NCBI RefSeq assembly: GCF_000724545.1
Contig: NZ_JHBV01000013.1
Span: 1 to 64,000 of the forward strand
DNA from: Aureispira sp. CCB-QB1
GTDB taxonomy: Bacteria; Bacteroidota; Bacteroidia; Chitinophagales; Saprospiraceae
DNA: 64,000 bases
Direction of reading: 5' to 3'
Shown here: positions 10,939-19,310 of the stretch, piece after piece
Numbering within the stretch: position 1 is the stretch's first letter
Layout: every line of letters begins with the position of its first letter
Notes under the pieces: model-generated
Database searches by the model: none
What the model saw: only the letters and a program-made list of their open reading frames with translations
Told to the model about the DNA's origin: nothing
Made by a program: the position numbers and the translations under genes

Positions 10939-11701
10939 AGGATAACTGAATAAATGCTCTAAATAAATGATTTAAAGGAGTACTAACAGCTTGCTCTGCG
11001 GATAAATCCTTAGCAAGAATAGCACATGCTGTCAACTGTTTTTGTATAAACGTTTGAATAATACGAACAGGTTCTGTTAGATCCCCTTCCAAAGCAGCTA
11101 CTTTTTTACGAACTAATGTTTGAATCGCTGCATACAATGCTTCTTCTGATTTTAATTGTTCTAACAAGGGGACAAACTCCATTGGAGGCACTGTTTTTTT
11201 ATGACAAATCCAGTAGGCAGCTAGAAGTGGTCGCAAGACATAGAAGTATTTCTTAATGTCCATCAATCCATCAACCAAGCCTTTTTTAGAAGAATTTTTT
11301 GCTAAGCCCAAGTAATGAAAAGTCATAGAACGTGGCTTGAAGTAAGTATTGGTCAATTGCCATAATTCGGATCTAAAATTATAAGGATCTAGATATACGA
11401 TAGGAGATTGCAACCATTCAAAAGGACTCGCATTAGACCCTCTAAATAAGCGAAGTGTTTTGCGCAATTCCCACCCCGTTAAATCTAGTTCGTGCTCGTC
11501 AATGGCAAAATCCAGCATATCTTTTGATTCATCTATAGAAAGGTACCAATCTTGAGAATGAACGTATATGAAACGGACATCCCAATCACTATTTGGCGAA
11601 GCAAATCCCCAAGCTCTGCTACCTGATTCACAAGCGTATAATATCGTGATGTTATGAATCGTTTCTAGTTCTTTTAAACGTTTTAGGATTAAATCTTTCA
11701 T
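10922..11701 (-). CDS. RlaP-type nucleotidyltransferase, shorter paralogue
   Basis: A 259-residue protein closely matching the bacterial YcgL/RlaP pattern: CESGSRAWGFASPNSDWDVRFIY (24-46), with GS at 27-28 and catalytic aspartates D39 and D41. The family is known for association with RNA ligases and presumed RNA repair; that role here is inference. It is the first gene of a two-gene minus-strand unit with the longer paralogue. The two share the catalytic motif but differ in length and C-terminal part, which suggests division of labour or a heteromer. Confidence 0.85.
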   Translation of the reverse strand: MKDLILKRLKELETIHNITILYACESGSRAWGFASPNSDWDVRFIYVHSQDWYLSIDESKDMLDFAIDEHELDLTGWELRKTLRLFRGSNASPFEWLQSPIVYLDPYNFRSELWQLTNTYFKPRSMTFHYLGLAKNSSKKGLVDGLMDIKKYFYVLRPLLAAYWICHKKTVPPMEFVPLLEQLKSEEALYAAIQTLVRKKVAALEGDLTEPVRIIQTFIQKQLTACAILAKDLSAEQAVSTPLNHLFRAFIQLSYVDNQ

Positions 11702-12116
11702 AAGTTTTTTTAGTTTTTAGCATACATTATTTTCCTGAATGATTGCGGAATAGTAATGCTGATGAATGGTTTATGTAACTCATAAACGTAAGGTATAGTT
11801 CCAGTACCTGAATAGTTTTGTTTGTTGAAACGATGTAGAAATAGCAGATAATAGCACAGTACTACTAGCTAAGTTTGTCAAGTAATGAAACTTTATCAGT
11901 TGATTATCGATACTTGGAATTTTTAAGTGTTTTAGGTGTATAATATTGGTAGTTAGGTTTTTATGGTTTTTAAAAAAGGAGTGTTGTACGGAACAGTTAC
12001 CCAATTTATGGATTATTTTGAATAAAAAAATAACTCCAAAACTTGCATTTTTAATTTTTAATGTACAGCTTTGTATTATCAAACCGACTAAAATGGTTTT
12101 TAATTAAAAGACAAAC
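11702..12116. other. gene-free tract and probable promoter of the sulfate-reduction operon
   Basis: No convincing gene. An inverted, degenerate match to the dispersed repeat family (TTGTTTGTTGAAACGATG...AGCAG) lies around 11816-11853. Upstream of the first leader ORF, TTG at 12043-12045 and CTTTG near 12069-12073 are spaced roughly as in Bacteroidota promoters, though the -7 box is imperfect, so the operon promoter probably lies here. Transcription from it would cross both attenuators. Confidence 0.45.
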
Positions 12117-12182
12117 ATGAAATTTATCATTACATATTCAATCAATACTTGTTGTTGTTCTTGTCAGAAAAAACTCTGGTAG
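12117..12182 (+). CDS. cysteine-rich leader peptide 1 (21 aa)
   Basis: A short ORF, ATG to TAG, starting MKFIITYSINT and then the run CCCSC (codons TGT TGT TGT TCT TGT) before ending QKKLW. It lies about 430 bp upstream of the sulfite reductase gene, on the same strand, and is followed 49 nt later by an intrinsic terminator. Regulatory codon runs just ahead of a terminator are the mark of amino-acid attenuation leaders such as trp, his and leu; here the sensed residue would be cysteine, which fits the sulfate-assimilation operon downstream. The peptide itself probably has no function. That it is translated is inference. Confidence 0.75.
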   Translation: MKFIITYSINTCCCSCQKKLW

Positions 12183-12242
12183 GAATGCGTTATCTTATAT
12201 GTAATCATAATTAAATAAAATATAACCAAGAACCTTCTAGAG
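12174..12242 (+). promoter_or_regulatory. candidate antiterminator pairing, attenuator 1
   Basis: Bases 12174-12183 (CTCTGGTAGG), overlapping the leader stop, can pair with 12233-12242 (CCTTCTAGAG): nine of ten positions, one of them G-U. This occupies the 5' arm of terminator 1. The segment begins 9 nt after the last Cys codon, so a ribosome stalled early in the Cys run would leave it free. The pairing was worked out by eye, not by folding software. Confidence 0.55.
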
Positions 12243-12268
12243 ATACTAATTTCTAGAAGGTTTTTTTT
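12231..12268 (+). terminator. attenuator terminator 1
   Basis: A perfect 11-bp stem AACCTTCTAGA / TCTAGAAGGTT with a 10-base loop is followed by a T-run through 12268. It lies between the first and second cysteine leader ORFs, not after any gene, so it must act as a conditional terminator for transcripts heading to the sulfite reductase gene. Confidence 0.9.
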
Positions 12269-12331
12269 ATTCTGTATCTATAAAATCCACGAAACGTTAA
12301 GAAATTGAGTGGAGTCAATCAATATCAATTT

Positions 12332-12433
12332 ATGTCTATTTATACTCTATATAACTGTTGTACCTGCTGTTGTTGTTGCTTCAAGATAATTTCTTGTAAG
12401 TGGATGTGCACGTTATGGATAAACCTATATTGA
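12332..12433 (+). CDS. cysteine-rich leader peptide 2 (33 aa)
   Basis: A 33-codon ORF, ATG to TGA, starting MSIYTLYN and then CCTCCCCC, with two more cysteines later (nine Cys in all). The Cys run mixes TGT and TGC codons, which argues that the encoded residue is selected, not a simple TGT repeat. The stop is 29 nt before a strong terminator, which itself ends about 45 nt before the sulfite reductase start. Same architecture as leader 1, arranged in series. The inferred role is to sense charged Cys-tRNA by ribosome stalling. Confidence 0.8.
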   Translation: MSIYTLYNCCTCCCCCFKIISCKWMCTLWINLY

Positions 12434-12480
12434 TAGACAAATAATAGTATTCATTTAATGCAAAAGCCCTTTCAGGAAAT
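12389..12480 (+). promoter_or_regulatory. candidate antiterminator pairing, attenuator 2
   Basis: Bases 12389-12402 can pair with 12467-12480: twelve of fourteen positions, one G-U. This would sequester the 5' arm of terminator 2. The left segment starts 9 nt after the main Cys run of leader 2, matching the geometry of attenuator 1. A ribosome paused on the Cys codons would leave it exposed and favour readthrough; a ribosome moving on would cover or pass it and favour termination. Confidence 0.55.
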
Positions 12481-12508
12481 ATTACTTCCTGAAAGGGCTT
12501 TCTCTTTT
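12463..12508 (+). terminator. attenuator terminator 2
   Basis: A perfect 16-bp stem AAAGCCCTTTCAGGAA / TTCCTGAAAGGGCTTT with a seven-base loop is followed by CTCTTTT. It stands between leader 2 and the ATG of the sulfite reductase gene, on the coding strand, so it can only serve as a conditional terminator of that operon. Confidence 0.9.
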
Positions 12509-12545
12509 ATTTCTTAACTGTGGATCACTAAAAAACTTATATGTC

Positions 12546-14675
12546 ATGGCAACTAAATTAAACTTAGAAGGTATTCAACCTGCTGATCAAAAAGACATTA
12601 CTGAATTAAAACAAAAGATAACAGATGTTCAATTGGGACGGATTGATGAGGAACGTTTTAAACATTATAGACTGACAAGAGGGGTATATGGACAACGTCA
12701 GTTGGGGGGGCAAATGTTTAGGACAAAAATTCCGTTTGGTCGTTTGACAACAGAGCAGTTGGATGCTTTGGCAGATGCTTCAGAACGATATAGTACGGGA
12801 AATTTACATTTGACGACGCGTCAAAATATACAGTTGCATTATGTGAAGCTCAAGGATACACCTGCTTTATGGGCTGACTTATCTAGAGTTGGAGTGACTG
12901 CAATGGGGGCTTGTGGCAATACGATTCGAAATATTACGGCTTCTGCAAAAGCGGGTATTCACCCTGACGAACTGTTTGATGTGTCTCCTTATGTACATGC
13001 TTTGTTTGAGTATTTTTTGAGAAATCCTATTGCGCAAGAAATGGGACGAAAAATCAAAATAGCCTTTTCTGCTACCAATGAAGATTCCGCTTTTGCTTAC
13101 TTCCATGATTTTGGATTTATACCTCGAATTAAAAATGGAGAACGAGGCTTTAAGGTATTGTTAGGAGGAGGCTTGGGGGCACAAGCGATGATAGCACCAA
13201 CTGTTTATGAATTTTTGCCGACGTATAAAGTCATTCCATTTGTAGAAGCTTCGATTCGAGTTTTTGATCGTTATGGAGAACGAGAAAAAAGAATGAAAGC
13301 TCGATTGAAATTTTTATTAAAAAAATATACAATCGCTGAGTTTTTAGAACTGGTAGAGCAAGAAACCCGTGCTTTAGCCAATGCTTCCATAGAAATTGAG
13401 GATAGTAATAATTGGCAACCAACGCCACCCGCTACGTTGGCAGAAGAAACTTCTATTAGCATTCAAAATCCTACTGCCTATCAATTATGGCGCTTAACAA
13501 ATGTTTTTGAACAAAAGCAAAAGGGGTATCATGGCGTACAACTGAAAATTCGACTCGGCAACTTAAGTGCATCTTTGGCTCGACAATTAAGTGGAATTGT
13601 TCGAAAGTATGCTGCTAATGAATTGCGTTTGACGATTAATCAAGGAATTCTACTAAAATACATTCCAACAGATTCTTTGCCTGCGATTTACAATGCCTTA
13701 GATGCTTTAGGCTTGGCAAACCCTGGCTTTGGTTCAATTGTAGACGTTACGGCTTGTCCTGGTACAGACACGTGTAATTTAGCGGTTAGTAATAGTACTG
13801 CTTTGGCGAATCAGTTAGAGCAAGTATTGTTAGAGAATTATGCGTATTGGATTGGAGATAAGGAGGTGAACATCAAAATTAGTGGTTGTATGAATGCATG
13901 TGGACAACATATGGCCGCTAATATTGGCTTTCATGGTAGTTCTATCAAAGTTGGAAAACAGGTGCTACCTGCCATGCAAATTGTTTTAGGGGGTGGGGTA
14001 GATGAAACGGGTAAGGGGTTTATTGCAGAGAAAATTATTAAAATTCCAACGAAGAGGACTCCAATTGCCTTGACTTGGCTGCTAGATGATTATGAAGAAA
14101 AAGAACTTGGAGGAGAGCGTTTTAATGATTATGTCCAACGTCAAGGAAAAATGTATTTCTACAACTTGCTGAAAGAACTAACAACAAAGGATGATCTACA
14201 TTCTAGTGATTTTTGGGACTGGGGACAAGAGACGATGTATAAAAAAGAAATTGGAGTTGGTGAGTGTGCAGGAGTCGCATTTGATATGGTAACTACGATT
14301 TTGAACGATGCCAAAGAAAAAGTTGAATTAGGCCGCCAAGCATTAGAAGAAGAGTTGTTTGGAGACAGTGTTTATCTGAGTTATGGAGCTTTTGTGGTTG
14401 CTGCCAAAGCCATTTTATTGGGTATTGATGTGAAGTGCAATACGCACATTGGGATTATCAAGGATTTTGATCAGCACTTGGTTGATACAGGTCTTTTTGA
14501 TTTGGAGGTGCCTTTTGCAGAGTTGGTTTTGCAAATCAATCAGAACCAGCCAGAACCAGCCTTTGCGGAGCAATATTGGCAACAAGCAGCTGCCTTTTTA
14601 GAACAAGTATTTGCTTATAGAGAAGCACGTTTGGATGGAAATAAAGAAGTTATTAATGCCCATTATAACGCCTAA
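12546..14675 (+). CDS. siroheme- and [4Fe-4S]-dependent sulfite/nitrite reductase with C-terminal extension
   Basis: A 709-residue assimilatory reductase of the ferredoxin-type sulfite/nitrite family. The two homologous halves are present; early Arg-rich segments (RQLGGQMFRTKIPFG, LTTRQNIQLHY) contact siroheme and anion. The cluster and siroheme cysteines are in CPGTDTC (C404, C410) and GCMNACGQH (C448, C452). After about residue 545 comes a helical extension of roughly 160 residues, not part of the classic enzyme; related Bacteroidota proteins carry a HEPN-like region there. The neighbours, siroheme genes and APS/PAPS reductase, indicate sulfite as substrate, giving sulfide for cysteine. It is the first structural gene behind two cysteine-leader attenuators. 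Confidence 0.9.
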   Translation: MATKLNLEGIQPADQKDITELKQKITDVQLGRIDEERFKHYRLTRGVYGQRQLGGQMFRTKIPFGRLTTEQLDALADASERYSTGNLHLTTRQNIQLHYVKLKDTPALWADLSRVGVTAMGACGNTIRNITASAKAGIHPDELFDVSPYVHALFEYFLRNPIAQEMGRKIKIAFSATNEDSAFAYFHDFGFIPRIKNGERGFKVLLGGGLGAQAMIAPTVYEFLPTYKVIPFVEASIRVFDRYGEREKRMKARLKFLLKKYTIAEFLELVEQETRALANASIEIEDSNNWQPTPPATLAEETSISIQNPTAYQLWRLTNVFEQKQKGYHGVQLKIRLGNLSASLARQLSGIVRKYAANELRLTINQGILLKYIPTDSLPAIYNALDALGLANPGFGSIVDVTACPGTDTCNLAVSNSTALANQLEQVLLENYAYWIGDKEVNIKISGCMNACGQHMAANIGFHGSSIKVGKQVLPAMQIVLGGGVDETGKGFIAEKIIKIPTKRTPIALTWLLDDYEEKELGGERFNDYVQRQGKMYFYNLLKELTTKDDLHSSDFWDWGQETMYKKEIGVGECAGVAFDMVTTILNDAKEKVELGRQALEEELFGDSVYLSYGAFVVAAKAILLGIDVKCNTHIGIIKDFDQHLVDTGLFDLEVPFAELVLQINQNQPEPAFAEQYWQQAAAFLEQVFAYREARLDGNKEVINAHYNA

Positions 14676-14703
14676 AATCATCATCTATAAAATATAAAAG
14701 ACA

Positions 14704-15468
14704 ATGAAAAAACAACCAAAGATAACGTTAATGGGCGCAGGTCCAGGAAGTGCAGACTTGATCACAATTAGAGGGCTAAGAGCCTTGAGAACAGCGGATG
14801 TCATTTTGTACGATGCTTTGGCAAATCCAGAACTGTTGCAGAATGTATCTGAGAATACACTAAAAATTAATGTAGGGAAACGAGCAAATAAACATCGCTT
14901 TAGCCAATCAGAGATCAATTTAATGACGGTAAGTTATGCCTTTTCACACGGACACGTGGTGCGATTGAAAGGAGGAGATCCTTTTATATTTGGAAGAGCA
15001 TACGAAGAGTTGCAATATGCGACTTCTTTTAATATAGAGACAACTATTGTACCTGGTGTGTCGAGTAGTACTGCGTTGGTAGGTTTGCAAGAAGTACCTT
15101 TGACACATAGGAATTATAGTCAAGGATTTTGGGTATTGACAGGAACAACCAAGCATGGTGTATTGCCCAAAGATTTTTATTTGGCAGCGCAATCAAATTC
15201 AACTCTGGTTATCCTAATGGGGCTTCGAAAATTGGCTGAAATAACAAGGGTTTTGCACCGCTACGGAAAAGGAAATACACCCGTCATGGTGATTCAAAAT
15301 GGCTCCTTACCCAATGAGCGTGTTGTATTGGGGACAGTAGATACAATTGTTGATATTGTAGAAAAAGAAGGGATTCAAACGCCTGCTGTTATTGTCGTTG
15401 GGCAAGTGGTTGCTTTACATCCCGACTTAGTGAAAAGTTATGCTATTACAGTCAATTCAAAAAATTAA
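14704..15468 (+). CDS. cobA: uroporphyrinogen-III C-methyltransferase
   Basis: An SAM-dependent methylase of 254 residues that converts uroporphyrinogen III to precorrin-2, the first step toward siroheme. It shows the family's N-terminal GAGPGSADLITIRG (about 11-24), the VRLKGGDPFIFGRA loop (about 83-96) and PGVSSSTA (about 119-126), all hallmark SUMT motifs. It lies 28 bp after the sulfite reductase gene, whose siroheme it helps make, and 5 bp before the precorrin-2 dehydrogenase gene; in enterobacteria both activities are fused in CysG. Identification is secure. Confidence 0.95.
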   Translation: MKKQPKITLMGAGPGSADLITIRGLRALRTADVILYDALANPELLQNVSENTLKINVGKRANKHRFSQSEINLMTVSYAFSHGHVVRLKGGDPFIFGRAYEELQYATSFNIETTIVPGVSSSTALVGLQEVPLTHRNYSQGFWVLTGTTKHGVLPKDFYLAAQSNSTLVILMGLRKLAEITRVLHRYGKGNTPVMVIQNGSLPNERVVLGTVDTIVDIVEKEGIQTPAVIVVGQVVALHPDLVKSYAITVNSKN

Positions 15469-15473
15469 AGAGT

Positions 15474-16055
15474 ATGAATACATTATATCCTGTTTTTCTA
15501 AAAGTTAATCAATTGCCTATCTTAATTGTTGGTGGTGGGCATGTAGGTTATGAAAAAATTAGTTTGATTCTAAAAAATAGCCCCGACGCAAGAATTATTT
15601 TGGTCGCTATAGAAATTTCTAAAAAAATTCGTTCGCTGCTGGTGGGGCGAGAACATCAAGTAACCTTAATAGAACGACCTTTTCAATTGTATGATTTGGA
15701 AAAGAAAAGTTTGGTCATTGTAGCAACCAACAATCGTTCGTTGAATAAATATATTTGGAGTGAAGCCAAGTCAAGAGGTACTATTGTTAATGTTGCCGAT
15801 ACACCTTTGTTGTGTGACTTTTATTTGGGGTCTGTTGTTACCAAAGGAGATTTAAAAATAGCTATTTCTACCAATGGGAAATCTCCAACTTTTGCCAAAA
15901 GGTTGAGGCAGTTGCTCGAGAATATATTGCCAGAAGAAATTGAGGGACTTTTGGAGAATATGTATGATTTTAGACAAACATTGGGAGTTGATTTTGAACG
16001 AAAGGTTAAAATTTTAAATGCTTTGACAGAAAGCTTATTGGATAAATCTGCTTAG
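15474..16055 (+). CDS. precorrin-2 dehydrogenase / sirohydrochlorin ferrochelatase (CysG N-terminal type)
   Basis: A 193-residue protein matching the N-terminal half of CysG, also seen as SirC or Met8p. An NAD-binding fold (LPILIVGGGHVGYEKI) leads to the VNVADTPLLCDFYLGSVVTKGDLKIAISTNGKSPTFAKRLR region typical of the family. It oxidises precorrin-2 to sirohydrochlorin, and some members also insert iron to give siroheme. No separate ferrochelatase is seen in the operon, so this protein may do both jobs. It starts 5 bp after cobA. Confidence 0.9.
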   Translation: MNTLYPVFLKVNQLPILIVGGGHVGYEKISLILKNSPDARIILVAIEISKKIRSLLVGREHQVTLIERPFQLYDLEKKSLVIVATNNRSLNKYIWSEAKSRGTIVNVADTPLLCDFYLGSVVTKGDLKIAISTNGKSPTFAKRLRQLLENILPEEIEGLLENMYDFRQTLGVDFERKVKILNALTESLLDKSA

Positions 16056-16110
16056 TAAGTAATCATTCAAAAAAATATACTTATAAGCTTCAAAATGATA
16101 CTTACTGATC

Positions 16111-16377
16111 ATGAAAAAAGAACAAAAACGAAGAAGCCTTGTCAAAGCATTGACCTATAGAGTCGGGGCAACAATTGCTACGTTTTCCATTACATTGGCA
16201 TTTACTGGCAATATTAAATTAGCAAGCACAATAGGTTTTTTAGATGGAATTGTAAAATTTCTATTGTTTTATATCAATGAACGAATTTGGATTAGAACCA
16301 ATTGGGGCTATCACACCAATCACCCTTCAATTTTATCAGATTATGAAAACCAAGAAGCCTTTTCCAAACTCAAATAG
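16111..16377 (+). CDS. DUF2061 membrane protein of the sulfate-reduction operon
   Basis: An 88-residue protein with two predicted membrane helices and the DUF2061 pattern: KRRSLVKALTYRVGATIATF, then GFLDGIVKFLLFYINERIW. DUF2061 proteins are often found beside or fused to sulfate-activation and reduction genes in Bacteroidota, but their function is not known; a role in sulfate handling is inferred from neighbourhood alone. The gene overlaps the start of the reductase that follows by 35 bp, so translation is probably coupled. Confidence 0.85.
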   Translation: MKKEQKRRSLVKALTYRVGATIATFSITLAFTGNIKLASTIGFLDGIVKFLLFYINERIWIRTNWGYHTNHPSILSDYENQEAFSKLK

Positions 16378-17047
16378 TCCTATTGATGATAAGGATATCG
16401 CAAGCCTAAACGAGCAGTTTAAACCATTGCCTCCTATAGAGCGCATCAAACTTTTGTACCATCTATTTGATGTGAAATCTATCTTATATACCTCTTCTTT
16501 TGGGACAAAGTCAGCCTTGTTGCTTTATTGGATTAGTAATCTTCAAGCTGCACAGAAAATTCATTTTCTGGATACTGGATACCATTTTGAGGAAACGCTA
16601 AGATACAAAGATGCATTGGTTCAGTCTTTAAATTTGGAAGTCGTTCATTTGAAACCAGAAACAACAGCCCATCAGGCAACTTTAGAGGCTGAAATGTGGA
16701 AGAATAATACTAGTAAGTGTTGTTATATTAATAAAGTAGTGCCACTAGAATTGGTGAAGTTAGATTATGATATTTGGATTTCAGGTCTGATGGCTTATCA
16801 AACCCCTTTTAGAAGAAACTTAGAGGTATTTGAGAAAAAGGATAATATCTTGAAATTTTATCCATTAATAGATCTTTCAGAATCAGATTTTAACACAGCC
16901 TACCAAGCAACGAATTTGCCCCCTCATCCATTAGAGGTATTAGGGTATCATTCAATAGGATGTTTGCATTGCACGCAAAGAGGCAAGGGGCGTAGTGGTC
17001 GTTGGAGTAGAAGCTCAAAAACAGAGTGCGGTCTGCATTTTAACTAA
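16343..17047 (+). CDS. cysH: adenylyl-sulfate/phosphoadenylyl-sulfate reductase (thioredoxin-dependent)
   Basis: An assimilatory reductase of about 234 residues. It has the PP-loop-like YTSSFGTKSALLLYW segment, the HFLDTGYHFEETL stretch, a CC pair (C126, C127), and near the end SIGCLHCTQRGKGRSGRW with the C-terminal catalytic cysteine in KTECGLH (C229). The CC...CxxC set (C126, C127, C207, C210) marks the [4Fe-4S] type, which normally favours APS over PAPS, so APS is the likelier substrate. I chose the ATG at 16343 because the longer reading would overlap the DUF2061 gene by about 100 bp. ATP sulfurylase genes are not in the window. Confidence 0.9.
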   Translation: MKTKKPFPNSNSPIDDKDIASLNEQFKPLPPIERIKLLYHLFDVKSILYTSSFGTKSALLLYWISNLQAAQKIHFLDTGYHFEETLRYKDALVQSLNLEVVHLKPETTAHQATLEAEMWKNNTSKCCYINKVVPLELVKLDYDIWISGLMAYQTPFRRNLEVFEKKDNILKFYPLIDLSESDFNTAYQATNLPPHPLEVLGYHSIGCLHCTQRGKGRSGRWSRSSKTECGLHFN

Positions 17048-17059
17048 AATATCTTATCG

Positions 17060-17115
17060 TAGTAGTTAGCTACGCTGCTACTGCATAGTTTTAACGAACT
17101 ATTATTATCGAAAAT
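17060..17115. repeat. dispersed intergenic repeat, copy A
   Basis: The core AGCTACGCTGCTACTGCATAG followed by TTTTAACGAACTATT is shared with 27446-27481 at about 32 of 36 positions. It is short, non-coding and contains partial dyads. It lies just past cysH and before its terminator. The type of element is unknown. Confidence 0.6.
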
Positions 17116-17196
17116 GAATAGAATAATAGAGTCAGTCTGCTAAAAGATTATCAAAGAAGCAATCAGTTTTAGGGGTAAAGCTGACGGTTATTGAAA

Positions 17197-17231
17197 AGGG
17201 AGGTGCTAGAAATGGCATCTCCCTAGTTTTT
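17197..17231 (+). terminator. terminator of the sulfate-reduction operon
   Basis: A ten-bp stem AGGGAGGTGC / GCATCTCCCT (one G-U) with an eight-base loop is followed by AGTTTTTA. It lies 150 bp beyond cysH, after the repeat copy. The 346-bp tract between cysH and rpsA otherwise holds only the repeat and the rpsA promoter. Confidence 0.85.
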
Positions 17232-17269
17232 ATGCATCAATCATTTTTATTTCGAATAAATTCAAAATG

Positions 17270-17301
17270 TTTGGTAAAAAACAGCTTTATTATTATCTTT
17301 G
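17270..17301 (+). promoter_or_regulatory. Bacteroidota-type promoter of rpsA
   Basis: A -33 box TTTG (17270-17273) and a -7 box TATCTTTG (17294-17301, TAnnTTTG) are separated by 20 bp, the textbook arrangement for the Bacteroidota primary sigma factor. Transcription would start just after 17301, giving a 5' leader of about 85 nt before the rpsA ATG. Confidence 0.75.
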
Positions 17302-17393
17302 CACTCGCTTTTTAAGCTCTTATACAAGTGTTTGAGCCTCAAAAGCTGATCGAAAAATTATTTCTTAACCTTTTAAAAACAAGTTTTTTCTAA

Positions 17394-19310
17394 ATGGAGA
17401 ATCTTGAAAACGAAAACAACGAAGAAAAAGTTGTTGAAAACAATCCAACAGTAGAATCAACTGTTGAAGAAACTGTAGAAACTAACGAAGAAGTGGTAGT
17501 AGAAGATACTAATCACGATGATTTTGACTGGGATAAAGGTCCTAAAGGAGTATTGAACTACGAGGACAATGTGATTGCAGAATATGAGGAGTTGTATGAA
17601 AATACGTTGAGTTCTATCAAAGAATTTGAAATCGTTGCTGGTAAAGTTGTATTTATTACAGCTAGTGATGTTGTTTTGGATTTGAATTGTAAGTCAGACG
17701 GGTTGGTATCTCGTACAGAATTCCGTGACATGCCTGATTTGGCTGTCGGTGATGTAGTAGAGGTATACGTAGAAACTCAAGAAGACAAACGTGGACAATT
17801 AGTTCTTTCTCGTCGTAAAGCTAAATTGTTGAATGCTTGGGCTAATATTGTTTCTTCTTTCGAAGAAGGAAAAGTAGTGACAGGTACTGTAATTAGCAAA
17901 ACGAAAGGAGGTCTTATTGTTGACATCGATGGATTGGAAACATTCCTTCCTGGATCTCAAATTGATATTCGTCCAATTATTGACTACGATGCATATGTTG
18001 GTAAAACAATGGAGTTCAAAGTAGTTAAAATTAACGAATCTATCAAAAACGCTGTTGTATCTCACAAAGCACTTATCGAAAGTGACTTGGAAGAGCAACG
18101 TCAAGCAATTATCTCTAAATTGGAGAAAGGACAAGTATTGGAAGGTACGGTTAAAAACCTTACTGACTTTGGTGCTTTCTTGGATTTGGGTGGTGTTGAC
18201 GGTTTGTTGTACATTACGGATATTTCTTGGGGACGTATCAAGCACCCAAGTGACGTATTGGAGAATGGTCAAAAACTAAACGTAGTAGTATTAGACTTTA
18301 ATGATGATAAAAAACGTATCTCTTTGGGTCTTAAGCAACTACAACCTCATCCATGGGATGTATTGGCAGAAAGCGTTGAGCCTGGTTCTATCGTAAAAGG
18401 TAAAATTGTTAACATCGAGGATTATGGTGCTTTCTTGGAAGTTACTCCTGGTGTTGAAGGTCTTATCCACGTTTCTGAAGTATCTTGGAGCAGTCAACCA
18501 ATCAACTCTCGCGAATTCTTTAAAGAAGGAGACGAATACGAAGCAAAAGTGGTTACTATCGACCGCGAAGACCGCAAAATGTCTTTGAGTTTAAGAAAAC
18601 TACAAGAAGATCCTTGGACAAACATCGAAGAGAAGTATCCTAAAGGTTCTCAGCACAAAGGAGAAGTTAAAAACTTGACTCCGTATGGTGTATTCATCGA
18701 GTTAGAAGAGGGAATTGGTGGAATGATTCACATTTCTGATCTTTCTTGGACAAAACGTTTTGCACACCCTGCTGAGTTTACAAAAGTAGGTGCTGAAATG
18801 GACGTTATTATTCTTGAAATCGACAAAGATAGCCGTAAATTATCTTTGGGACACAAACAATTAGAAGAGAATCCATGGGATACTTTTGCTGATGTGTTCC
18901 CAGAAGGTTCTACACATGAAGCTACTATTTTGCGTCGTGACGATAGAGGTGCAATCGTATTGTTGCCTTATGGTTTAGAAGCTTTCGCTCCTATCCGTCA
19001 TATCAAGAAAGAAGATGGAACATTGGCTGAGGTAGACGAGCAATTGCCATTCAAAGTAATTGAGTTTAACCGTGATGACAAGCGTATCTTAGTTTCTCAC
19101 TCTCGTTATTATTCTGATGCTAAGCGTAGTGCAGAGCAAGCAGAAAAAGACGCTGCTAAAGCAGAAAAACAAGCTGCTAAACAAGCTGTGAAGCAAGTAA
19201 ATTCTAATACAGAGAAAAGTACTTTTGGTGACTTAAGCGCATTCTCTGAATTGAAAGAGCAGTTGAAGAACGAAGAAAATGATTCTACTGAAAACAAAGA
19301 TGGCGAATAA
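17394..19310 (+). CDS. rpsA: 30S ribosomal protein S1
   Basis: A 638-residue S1 protein, which binds mRNA and helps load it on the 30S subunit. After an acidic N-terminal tail of about 60 residues, six S1-type OB domains follow one another; the third to fifth are clearest (GTVKNLTDFGAFLDLGGVDG, GKIVNIEDYGAFLEV, GEVKNLTPYGVFIEL). The C-terminus is a Lys/Ala-rich, probably helical tail. It has its own promoter and terminator. Confidence 0.95.
   Translation: MENLENENNEEKVVENNPTVESTVEETVETNEEVVVEDTNHDDFDWDKGPKGVLNYEDNVIAEYEELYENTLSSIKEFEIVAGKVVFITASDVVLDLNCKSDGLVSRTEFRDMPDLAVGDVVEVYVETQEDKRGQLVLSRRKAKLLNAWANIVSSFEEGKVVTGTVISKTKGGLIVDIDGLETFLPGSQIDIRPIIDYDAYVGKTMEFKVVKINESIKNAVVSHKALIESDLEEQRQAIISKLEKGQVLEGTVKNLTDFGAFLDLGGVDGLLYITDISWGRIKHPSDVLENGQKLNVVVLDFNDDKKRISLGLKQLQPHPWDVLAESVEPGSIVKGKIVNIEDYGAFLEVTPGVEGLIHVSEVSWSSQPINSREFFKEGDEYEAKVVTIDREDRKMSLSLRKLQEDPWTNIEEKYPKGSQHKGEVKNLTPYGVFIELEEGIGGMIHISDLSWTKRFAHPAEFTKVGAEMDVIILEIDKDSRKLSLGHKQLEENPWDTFADVFPEGSTHEATILRRDDRGAIVLLPYGLEAFAPIRHIKKEDGTLAEVDEQLPFKVIEFNRDDKRILVSHSRYYSDAKRSAEQAEKDAAKAEKQAAKQAVKQVNSNTEKSTFGDLSAFSELKEQLKNEENDSTENKDGE

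Follow-up and report, generated by a model that had tools for sequence, protein, structure and literature searches.

Putative tandem cysteine-codon attenuators upstream of a sulfite-reductase operon in the Bacteroidota

Transcription attenuators of the trp/his type, known from Proteobacteria, combine a leader ORF carrying codons for the product of the pathway with an intrinsic terminator and a competing segment past the control codons. Leaders with runs of cysteine codons are also in print. An earlier reading of the present DNA, made from its sequence only, had noted them for actinobacteria, and indeed polycysteine leaders lie upstream of mycobacterial, P. acnes and B. longum cys/cbs genes, where the accessible part of the report finds no terminators (PMC1262725). 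Those of M. smegmatis have been tied to cysteine supply, and the mycobacterial leaders are described as leaderless ORFs with a translational mechanism (Canestrari 2020), both as cited in the available sections of PMC9031893 and PMC13236596. In Rhodobacterales, the uORFC-8-2 motif of the cysS leader joins a predicted uORF with two Cys codons to an intrinsic terminator, and cysteine attenuation was proposed for it (PMC8632094, available portion). The Salmonella mgtCBR transcript contains two leader ORFs with attenuators, and tandem riboswitches and tandem T-boxes place two sensors of the same signal in series, with a pseudo-cooperative response expected for the riboswitches (PMC3641672 and PMC12452182, in the extracts available). 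For the Bacteroidota, the accessible text of PMC9723704 hints at leader-peptide attenuation of amino-acid operons in Flavobacterium psychrophilum, and that of PMC7366714 contains leader-like sORFs of Bacteroides thetaiotaomicron.

Here we describe two putative cysteine attenuators in a 64,000-nt window (the whole stretch of DNA that was analysed, contig C13 of the 7.37-Mb genome G000). They possess sequence features of a trp/his-type attenuator, namely an end-product codon run, an intrinsic terminator and a competing antiterminator segment just past the codons. They differ from that type in carrying cysteine instead of Trp or His codons, in standing in series for the same signal, in belonging to the Bacteroidota and in that a protector hairpin is not general in their family. 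With the mycobacterial leaders they share Cys codon runs before sulfur-assimilation genes, but they have the intrinsic terminators that were not found there (PMC1262725, accessible part). In contrast, uORFC-8-2 has only two Cys codons, precedes a cysteinyl-tRNA synthetase gene in alphaproteobacteria and is not mentioned as doubled in the available portion of PMC8632094; the first gene behind the leaders of the window is a siroheme reductase and not cysS. Moreover, mgtCBR senses two signals, ATP and proline (PMC3641672, extract), whereas one signal would be read twice here, and the tandem riboswitches and T-boxes are ligand- or tRNA-binding RNAs without a leader peptide (PMC12452182, extract). 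The sequence-only reading knew of no tandem cysteine attenuator in Bacteroidota, and this claim of novelty survives in part. A literature search that left out most subscription papers and supplements gave no description of Bacteroidota poly-Cys attenuators with terminators, of two attenuators for one amino acid, or of a composite with a SAM riboswitch, and the word cysteine is absent from the main text of the RNA-discovery papers PMC11109978 and PMC6429828. The combination of a Cys-codon leader with an intrinsic terminator, however, had already been printed for the Rhodobacterales cysS. What is new is hence the poly-Cys form, doubled for one signal, in Bacteroidota; Cys leaders themselves are not.

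The coordinates of all features are collected in Table 1. The leaders precede a four-gene operon of a siroheme-type reductase, two siroheme-synthesis enzymes and the PAPS reductase cysH, with a hairpin behind cysH as the probable operon end. The best NCBIfam match of the reductase, PRK09567, stays below its cut-off, and we here read the protein as an assimilatory sulfite reductase; its best-matching named relatives come from Saprospiraceae MAGs, and the family of the window is inferred from these. No Rfam match with E ≤ 1 was obtained in 11600–17400 and none at gathering level in the whole window, which also gave no match to a known Rfam riboswitch or T-box covariance model.

Table 1. Positions of the leader elements and operon genes in the window, and of the composite loci in other genomes.
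Feature	Position	Strand	Basis
Promoter-like site, Bacteroidota type (TTG, 18 nt, TA-N4-TTTG), weak	12043..12073	+	read from sequence
Leader ORF 1, MKFIITYSINTCCCSCQKKLW	12117..12182	+	ORF reading; kept in relatives
Cys codon run 1 (CCCSC)	12150..12164	+	ORF reading
Possible protector (1:2) hairpin, leader 1	12157..12186	+	-10.6 kcal/mol
Antiterminator segment 1 (partner: terminator 1, 5' arm)	12174..12183	+	9/10 positions
Intrinsic terminator 1	12228..12265	+	-19.9 kcal/mol plus T run
Leader ORF 2, MSIYTLYNCCTCCCCCFKIISCKWMCTLWINLY	12332..12433	+	ORF reading
Cys codon run 2 (CCTCCCCC)	12356..12379	+	ORF reading
Antiterminator segment 2 (partner: terminator 2, 5' arm)	12389..12403	+	13/15 positions
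Intrinsic terminator 2	12463..12501	+	16 pairs, -25.0 kcal/mol plus T run
Siroheme/4Fe-4S nitrite/sulfite reductase (NirA-like)	12546..14675	+	Pfam PF01077, PF03460 above cut-off
Uroporphyrinogen-III C-methyltransferase (siroheme synthesis)	14704..15468	+	TIGR01469 above cut-off
Siroheme synthase N-terminal domain (precorrin-2 dehydrogenase)	15474..16055	+	TIGR01470 above cut-off
Phosphoadenylyl-sulfate reductase (cysH)	16277..17047	+	PRK02090 above cut-off
Terminator-like hairpin 3' of cysH	17197..17224	+	hairpin scan
SAM riboswitch plus poly-Cys composite	L059:3865-4125		
SAM riboswitch plus poly-Cys composite	L060:4032-4279		
SAM riboswitch plus poly-Cys composite	L066:3641-3850		
SAM riboswitch plus poly-Cys composite	L058:110-406		
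SAM riboswitch plus poly-Cys composite	L070:5343-5566		
SAM riboswitch plus poly-Cys composite	L077:5395-5612		
SAM riboswitch plus poly-Cys composite	L078:5492-5717		
SAM riboswitch plus poly-Cys composite	L088:1297-1557		
SAM riboswitch plus poly-Cys composite	L117:2089-2349		

It had been proposed that two short Cys-run ORFs stand in tandem before the reductase gene, each followed by its own intrinsic terminator with a stem of 11 or 16 bp, and each with a segment, starting 9 nt past the Cys run, that pairs with the 5' arm of that terminator. We recovered all of these elements. Leader 2 has two further Cys after its run, both pairing segments begin 9 nt past the last Cys of their run, and segment 1 includes the stop codon of leader 1. 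The core of terminator 1 consists of 11 perfect pairs, or 17 in a scan that allows G-T pairs. The count changed only for leader 2, where 13 of 15 positions pair instead of the 12 of 14 first given. In 20,000 dinucleotide shuffles of 12083–12545, at least one Cys leader (3-in-6) appeared in 400 and two or more in 8. When the region of each leader was shuffled 100 times, 3 shuffles paired as well, for leader 1 and leader 2 alike; when the arms were swapped, foreign arms paired as well in 20% of cases for leader 1, which is weak, and in 5% for leader 2, which is better. Leader ORF 1 was also found in a genome of the same species (G544) and, with a 3-nt indel that keeps the frame, in one of the same genus (G003). 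Compared to G003, the stretches containing segment 1 (12173–12184) and segment 2 (12388–12404) are identical at 12/12 and 15/17 positions and the two terminators at 29/36 and 35/39. The 43 nt between segment 1 and terminator 1 agree at only 17/43 positions and the stretch from terminator 1 to leader 2 at 19/66; the contrast is smaller behind segment 2 (17/29 and 19/29 identical).

A comparison of the regions upstream of orthologous reductase genes had been suggested as a check, and its outcome is favourable. The reductase search over 398 family genomes gave 131 with a match, and the upstream regions of 117 were scanned in the main set; eight of the remaining 14 were scanned later, while six were left out because their reductase match is partial or truncated at the end of a contig. 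Of the 117 regions, 81 have one or more Cys-run ORFs, and 45 of these have two or more. When a terminator is counted in as well, two leaders are found in 44 genomes, one in 27 and none in 46, so that 71/117 genomes and 37/48 genera have a leader with terminator and 22/48 genera the tandem form. The tandem state is common and looks old. Among the 46 genomes without, at least four have less than 310 nt of upstream sequence (G477, G565, G568, G694), and in some of the 11 genera without, it is also cut. Five of the eight later regions contain a leader with terminator (one tandem) and three do not; these eight do not enter the terminator, pairing, shuffle, promoter, codon and hairpin statistics. 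Genus g7 has kept the reductase, but 19 of its 20 genomes have no Cys leader with terminator. At locus L013 no Cys leader was found upstream of the reductase; the gene that precedes it on the reverse strand is presumably, as judged by eye, an Rrf2-type regulator.

Cysteine is the specific residue of the leader runs. In a scan for all 20 amino acids (4-in-6), Cys runs occurred in 76/114 regions, where shuffles gave 0.2 and the reverse strand gave 0, and only Cys stood out. The next-highest residue, Leu (22/114 regions against 11.2 in shuffles), probably reflects TGY repeats read in another frame. Met is slightly raised in these regions (14/114 against 3.8 in shuffles, 3-in-6). The runs are written with 453 TGT and 227 TGC codons, and both kinds occur in 106 of 115 leaders; because TGT and TGC are mixed within runs, the codon meaning is conserved and not the letters. 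Outside the run the residues vary widely between genera, as judged by eye. Among the best 80 named reductase loci, three of which were too short and some of which share contigs with the family set, a Cys ORF (4-in-7) lies within 800 nt upstream in 23 and only further upstream in 9 more. The reverse strands of the same regions gave 5 such ORFs, and a few of the forward matches are weak.

The decisive result is the register of the pairing. A terminator with a dG below -10 kcal/mol, located -5 to 60 nt from the leader stop, follows 115 of 127 leaders (median 28 nt past the stop), and the pairing statistics were computed for these 115. We slid a 14-nt window along 62 leaders, with each genus and position represented once, and paired it with the 5' arm and loop of each leader's own terminator. 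Counted from the last Cys codon, the mean energy peaks at +12 nt with -9.4 kcal/mol; it amounts to -2.3 to -3.0 at -72 to -39, -4.8 at 0 and -2.8 kcal/mol at +30. In 94/115 leaders the best window falls at +5 to +20, where a uniform distribution would place about 18. Additionally, the own arm ranks among the best 10% when compared with foreign arms for 73/115 leaders (36/60 at one per genus and position), and own-arm pairing is better than in shuffles at P ≤ 0.05 for 79/115. This preference is not universal, since 42/115 leaders lie outside the best 10% and 36/115 fail the shuffle comparison. A segment at a fixed distance that pairs with its own terminator, whatever the sequence of the latter, is expected if a stalled ribosome frees the antiterminator. 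The phase-locked segment fits ribosome-mediated attenuation by charged tRNA-Cys. As Cys runs, terminators and pairing segments also occur together in the family and track one another, the trp/his-type interpretation first put forward for the window is supported at the level of predicted elements.

Folding calculations had likewise been suggested at the outset. In nascent folds of the window leaders up to the terminator loop, the antiterminator forms, in part or as a whole, with the ribosome held at the Cys run, and it is absent from the best fold of both leaders with the ribosome at the stop codon. In this last state, segment 2 is uncovered and pairs with the sequence just 5' of itself. On the other side, the antiterminator forms without any ribosome too, an outcome not expected under a strict protector-hairpin model. 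When the full leader is folded, the terminator prevails in all computed states, including those with a stalled ribosome. Because the complete terminator always wins, kinetics must decide between the two structures, which is also the case in classical attenuators. In leader 2, 54 nt separate the Cys run from the end of the stop codon, which lies some 30 nt farther on than the pairing segment; a ribosome waiting at this stop would therefore leave the segment uncovered. A protector (1:2) hairpin is plausible in leader 1 from the folding model, with z values of -3.5 in the window genome and -1.8 for the identical stretch in G544, both rough because only 40 shuffles were made each. In leader 2 the hairpin does not rise above shuffles. 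Across the family it reaches P ≤ 0.05 in 9/62 leaders against 2/62 control segments, so that a general protector hairpin is unsupported.

We are rather confident, though on sequence evidence and without expression data, that the sulfite-reductase operon is controlled by two transcription attenuators in series, both ribosome-mediated and responsive to cysteine. In each leader ORF a ribosome would trail the RNA polymerase. With plentiful charged tRNA-Cys it would clear the Cys run and cover or disrupt the segment behind, whereupon the terminator would fold and transcription would stop. If charged tRNA-Cys is scarce, the ribosome is predicted to stall within the run, so that its leading edge stops just short of the segment that lies about 12 nt after the final Cys codon; this segment could then pair with the 5' arm of the terminator and the polymerase would continue. 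Since the polymerase would have to get past both attenuators, a multiplication of basal leakage and a steeper response are to be expected. Translation of the ORFs, stalling, the response to cysteine and its steepness are inferred in this account, which builds on putative elements that can be read from the DNA: the ORFs, the terminators, the phase-locked and arm-specific pairing, the conservation, the Cys specificity, the serial order and the lack of an inter-leader promoter motif above chance. By all this evidence, and with no bench data to confirm it, sulfide would be made only when cysteine runs out.

The serial part of this reading has the strongest rival. One attenuator alone may matter, or the two may serve different transcripts from separate promoters; single-leader genomes do exist (the 27 of 117 with terminator), and the promoter-like site of the window matches neither the strict nor the loose Bacteroidota-type promoter pattern, its spacing being off by one base. 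The G003 stretch aligned to this site does match the loose pattern. Against this alternative, which we consider unlikely, stands the tandem form in 22 of the 48 genera, and no promoter motif above chance was seen between the leaders. Indeed, of the 44 tandem genomes 31 have the loose motif upstream of leader 1, against 4.5 in shuffles, and 1 has it in the gap from terminator 1 to leader 2, against 1.3 in shuffles; the strict motif gave 13/44 and 0/44. The two leaders therefore probably act in series, although the comparison is limited by the shortness of this gap (median 42.5 nt). In the printed relatives the promoter-like motif ends 25–55 nt before leader 1, which is a motif position and not a mapped start site. 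Moreover, first and second terminators differ in sequence type, which suggests that both attenuators were kept: with one leader per genus, 20/22 first leaders have arms of the CCT type, and CCC-type terminators follow 1/22 first but 13/23 second leaders (Fisher p 0.0002, with classes set after the sequences had been seen). The simplest reading of these predicted elements is one promoter followed by two old, separately kept attenuators.

It is a good deal less probable that attenuation by the Cys-run ORFs is translational or Rho-dependent, in the manner proposed for mycobacteria, with the hairpins being incidental. The mycobacterial cys operons have poly-Cys leaders without terminators (PMC1262725, accessible part) and are cited as translationally controlled, and seven of nine composite leaders behind SAM riboswitches (see below) have no terminator within 80 nt; in the family, however, a strong terminator follows 115 of the 127 leaders, and it is the arm of this terminator with which the segment pairs. 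That the ORFs encode functional Cys-rich peptides for metal or redox sensing or binding, followed by ordinary terminators, is conceivable given that Cys runs could bind metal and that copper sensing has been attributed to some Cys-rich uORFs elsewhere, but it can hardly be maintained when the residues outside the run differ so widely between genera while the RNA pairing persists and the target genes fit cysteine supply.

Beyond series attenuation in the window, we lean, with distinctly less assurance, toward the view that Bacteroidota hold old and widespread leader RNAs sensing tRNA-Cys, with same-amino-acid attenuators in series, two kept terminator types and a multiplicative switch, plus a SAM/cysteine two-input gate in Fulvivirga, Cesiribacter, Pontibacter and kin. 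If true, it would mean that a large bacterial phylum regulates its sulfide production through ribosomes that stall at cysteine codons, and would also offer a natural test bed for what two same-signal attenuators in series do beyond one. The sharp +12 nt register would furnish a sequence-only ruler for the ribosome edge in the Bacteroidota, where initiation is unusual and transcription–translation coupling has been little studied.

The possible two-input (SAM and cysteine) leader was seen at nine loci (Table 1), two from Fulvivirga, one from Cesiribacter, two from Pontibacter and one each from Botryobacter and a Flammeovirgaceae MAG, with two from other MAGs. A SAM riboswitch (RF00162) is followed there after 7–14 nt by the start codon of a poly-Cys leader, which has its run at or near the stop codon and precedes a ferredoxin, sulfite reductase or metX-like gene. 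Because a strong terminator within 80 nt is missing in seven of the nine, the composite form may work otherwise. The Rfam scan of 20 loci yielded ten with a SAM riboswitch, nine of these with a Cys leader behind; this is not a rate, as the loci were picked mostly for having Cys leaders. As a phylum-wide rule the composite was rejected: in a phylum sample with a SAM riboswitch match in 127/148 genomes, none occurred among the best-scoring 30 loci, which were those examined. Two of the composites contain mixed Met/Cys leaders (MMACCMCCCCCMC and MMACCMCCCWSAC, at L088:1438-1557 and L117:2230-2349) before a gene that is metX-like by eye; Pfam gave an alpha/beta hydrolase for that of L117. Four genomes of family f24 (G083:C1, G187:C2, G191:C1, G175:C1) have two SAM riboswitches each, some 1.4 to 12 kb from the reductase gene, as if the SAM switch stood in for the Cys attenuators.

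For other loci we used a covariance model built from alignment A2 (48 leaders of at most 125 nt, one per genus and position, with leader 1 of the window but not leader 2). It replaced the bare pattern TGYTGYTGYTGY, which was unusable in a search of the window's own genome, with 240 matches against 69 for the reversed control. The two leaders of the window are the best matches in their genome (4.9e-8 and 3.7e-6); the third-best (G000:C37, 1.6e-4) has no Cys run and is false, as are the matches after a ribosomal protein gene (G004:C74) and after a thioredoxin-like gene (G045:C138). The model also matches bare terminators: 35/36 genomes have a match with E ≤ 0.1, and the window genome has 24 such places, mostly uninspected. 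A Cys leader directly before cysD was absent in 9 loci, where only weak 3-in-6 ORFs that do not adjoin cysD were seen (L328 and L331); in the window genome the 1.5 kb upstream of cysD has no Cys leader. Genome G018, for which the reductase search gave no match, has tandem Cys leaders (G018:C129, L276:1270-2981); they are followed by a peroxiredoxin-like fragment and a PLP enzyme of the cysteine-synthase type. A CCC leader with a terminator whose 5' arm is matched by a complementary segment (G045:C107, L275:1451-1620) sits between a cysN-like gene, recognised by eye, and a cysteine-synthase-type gene. Finally, a leader with seven Cys (G041:C180, L271:1465-2671) precedes a gene, possibly for thiol synthesis, whose product has no Pfam match and by eye resembles an ATP-grasp protein.
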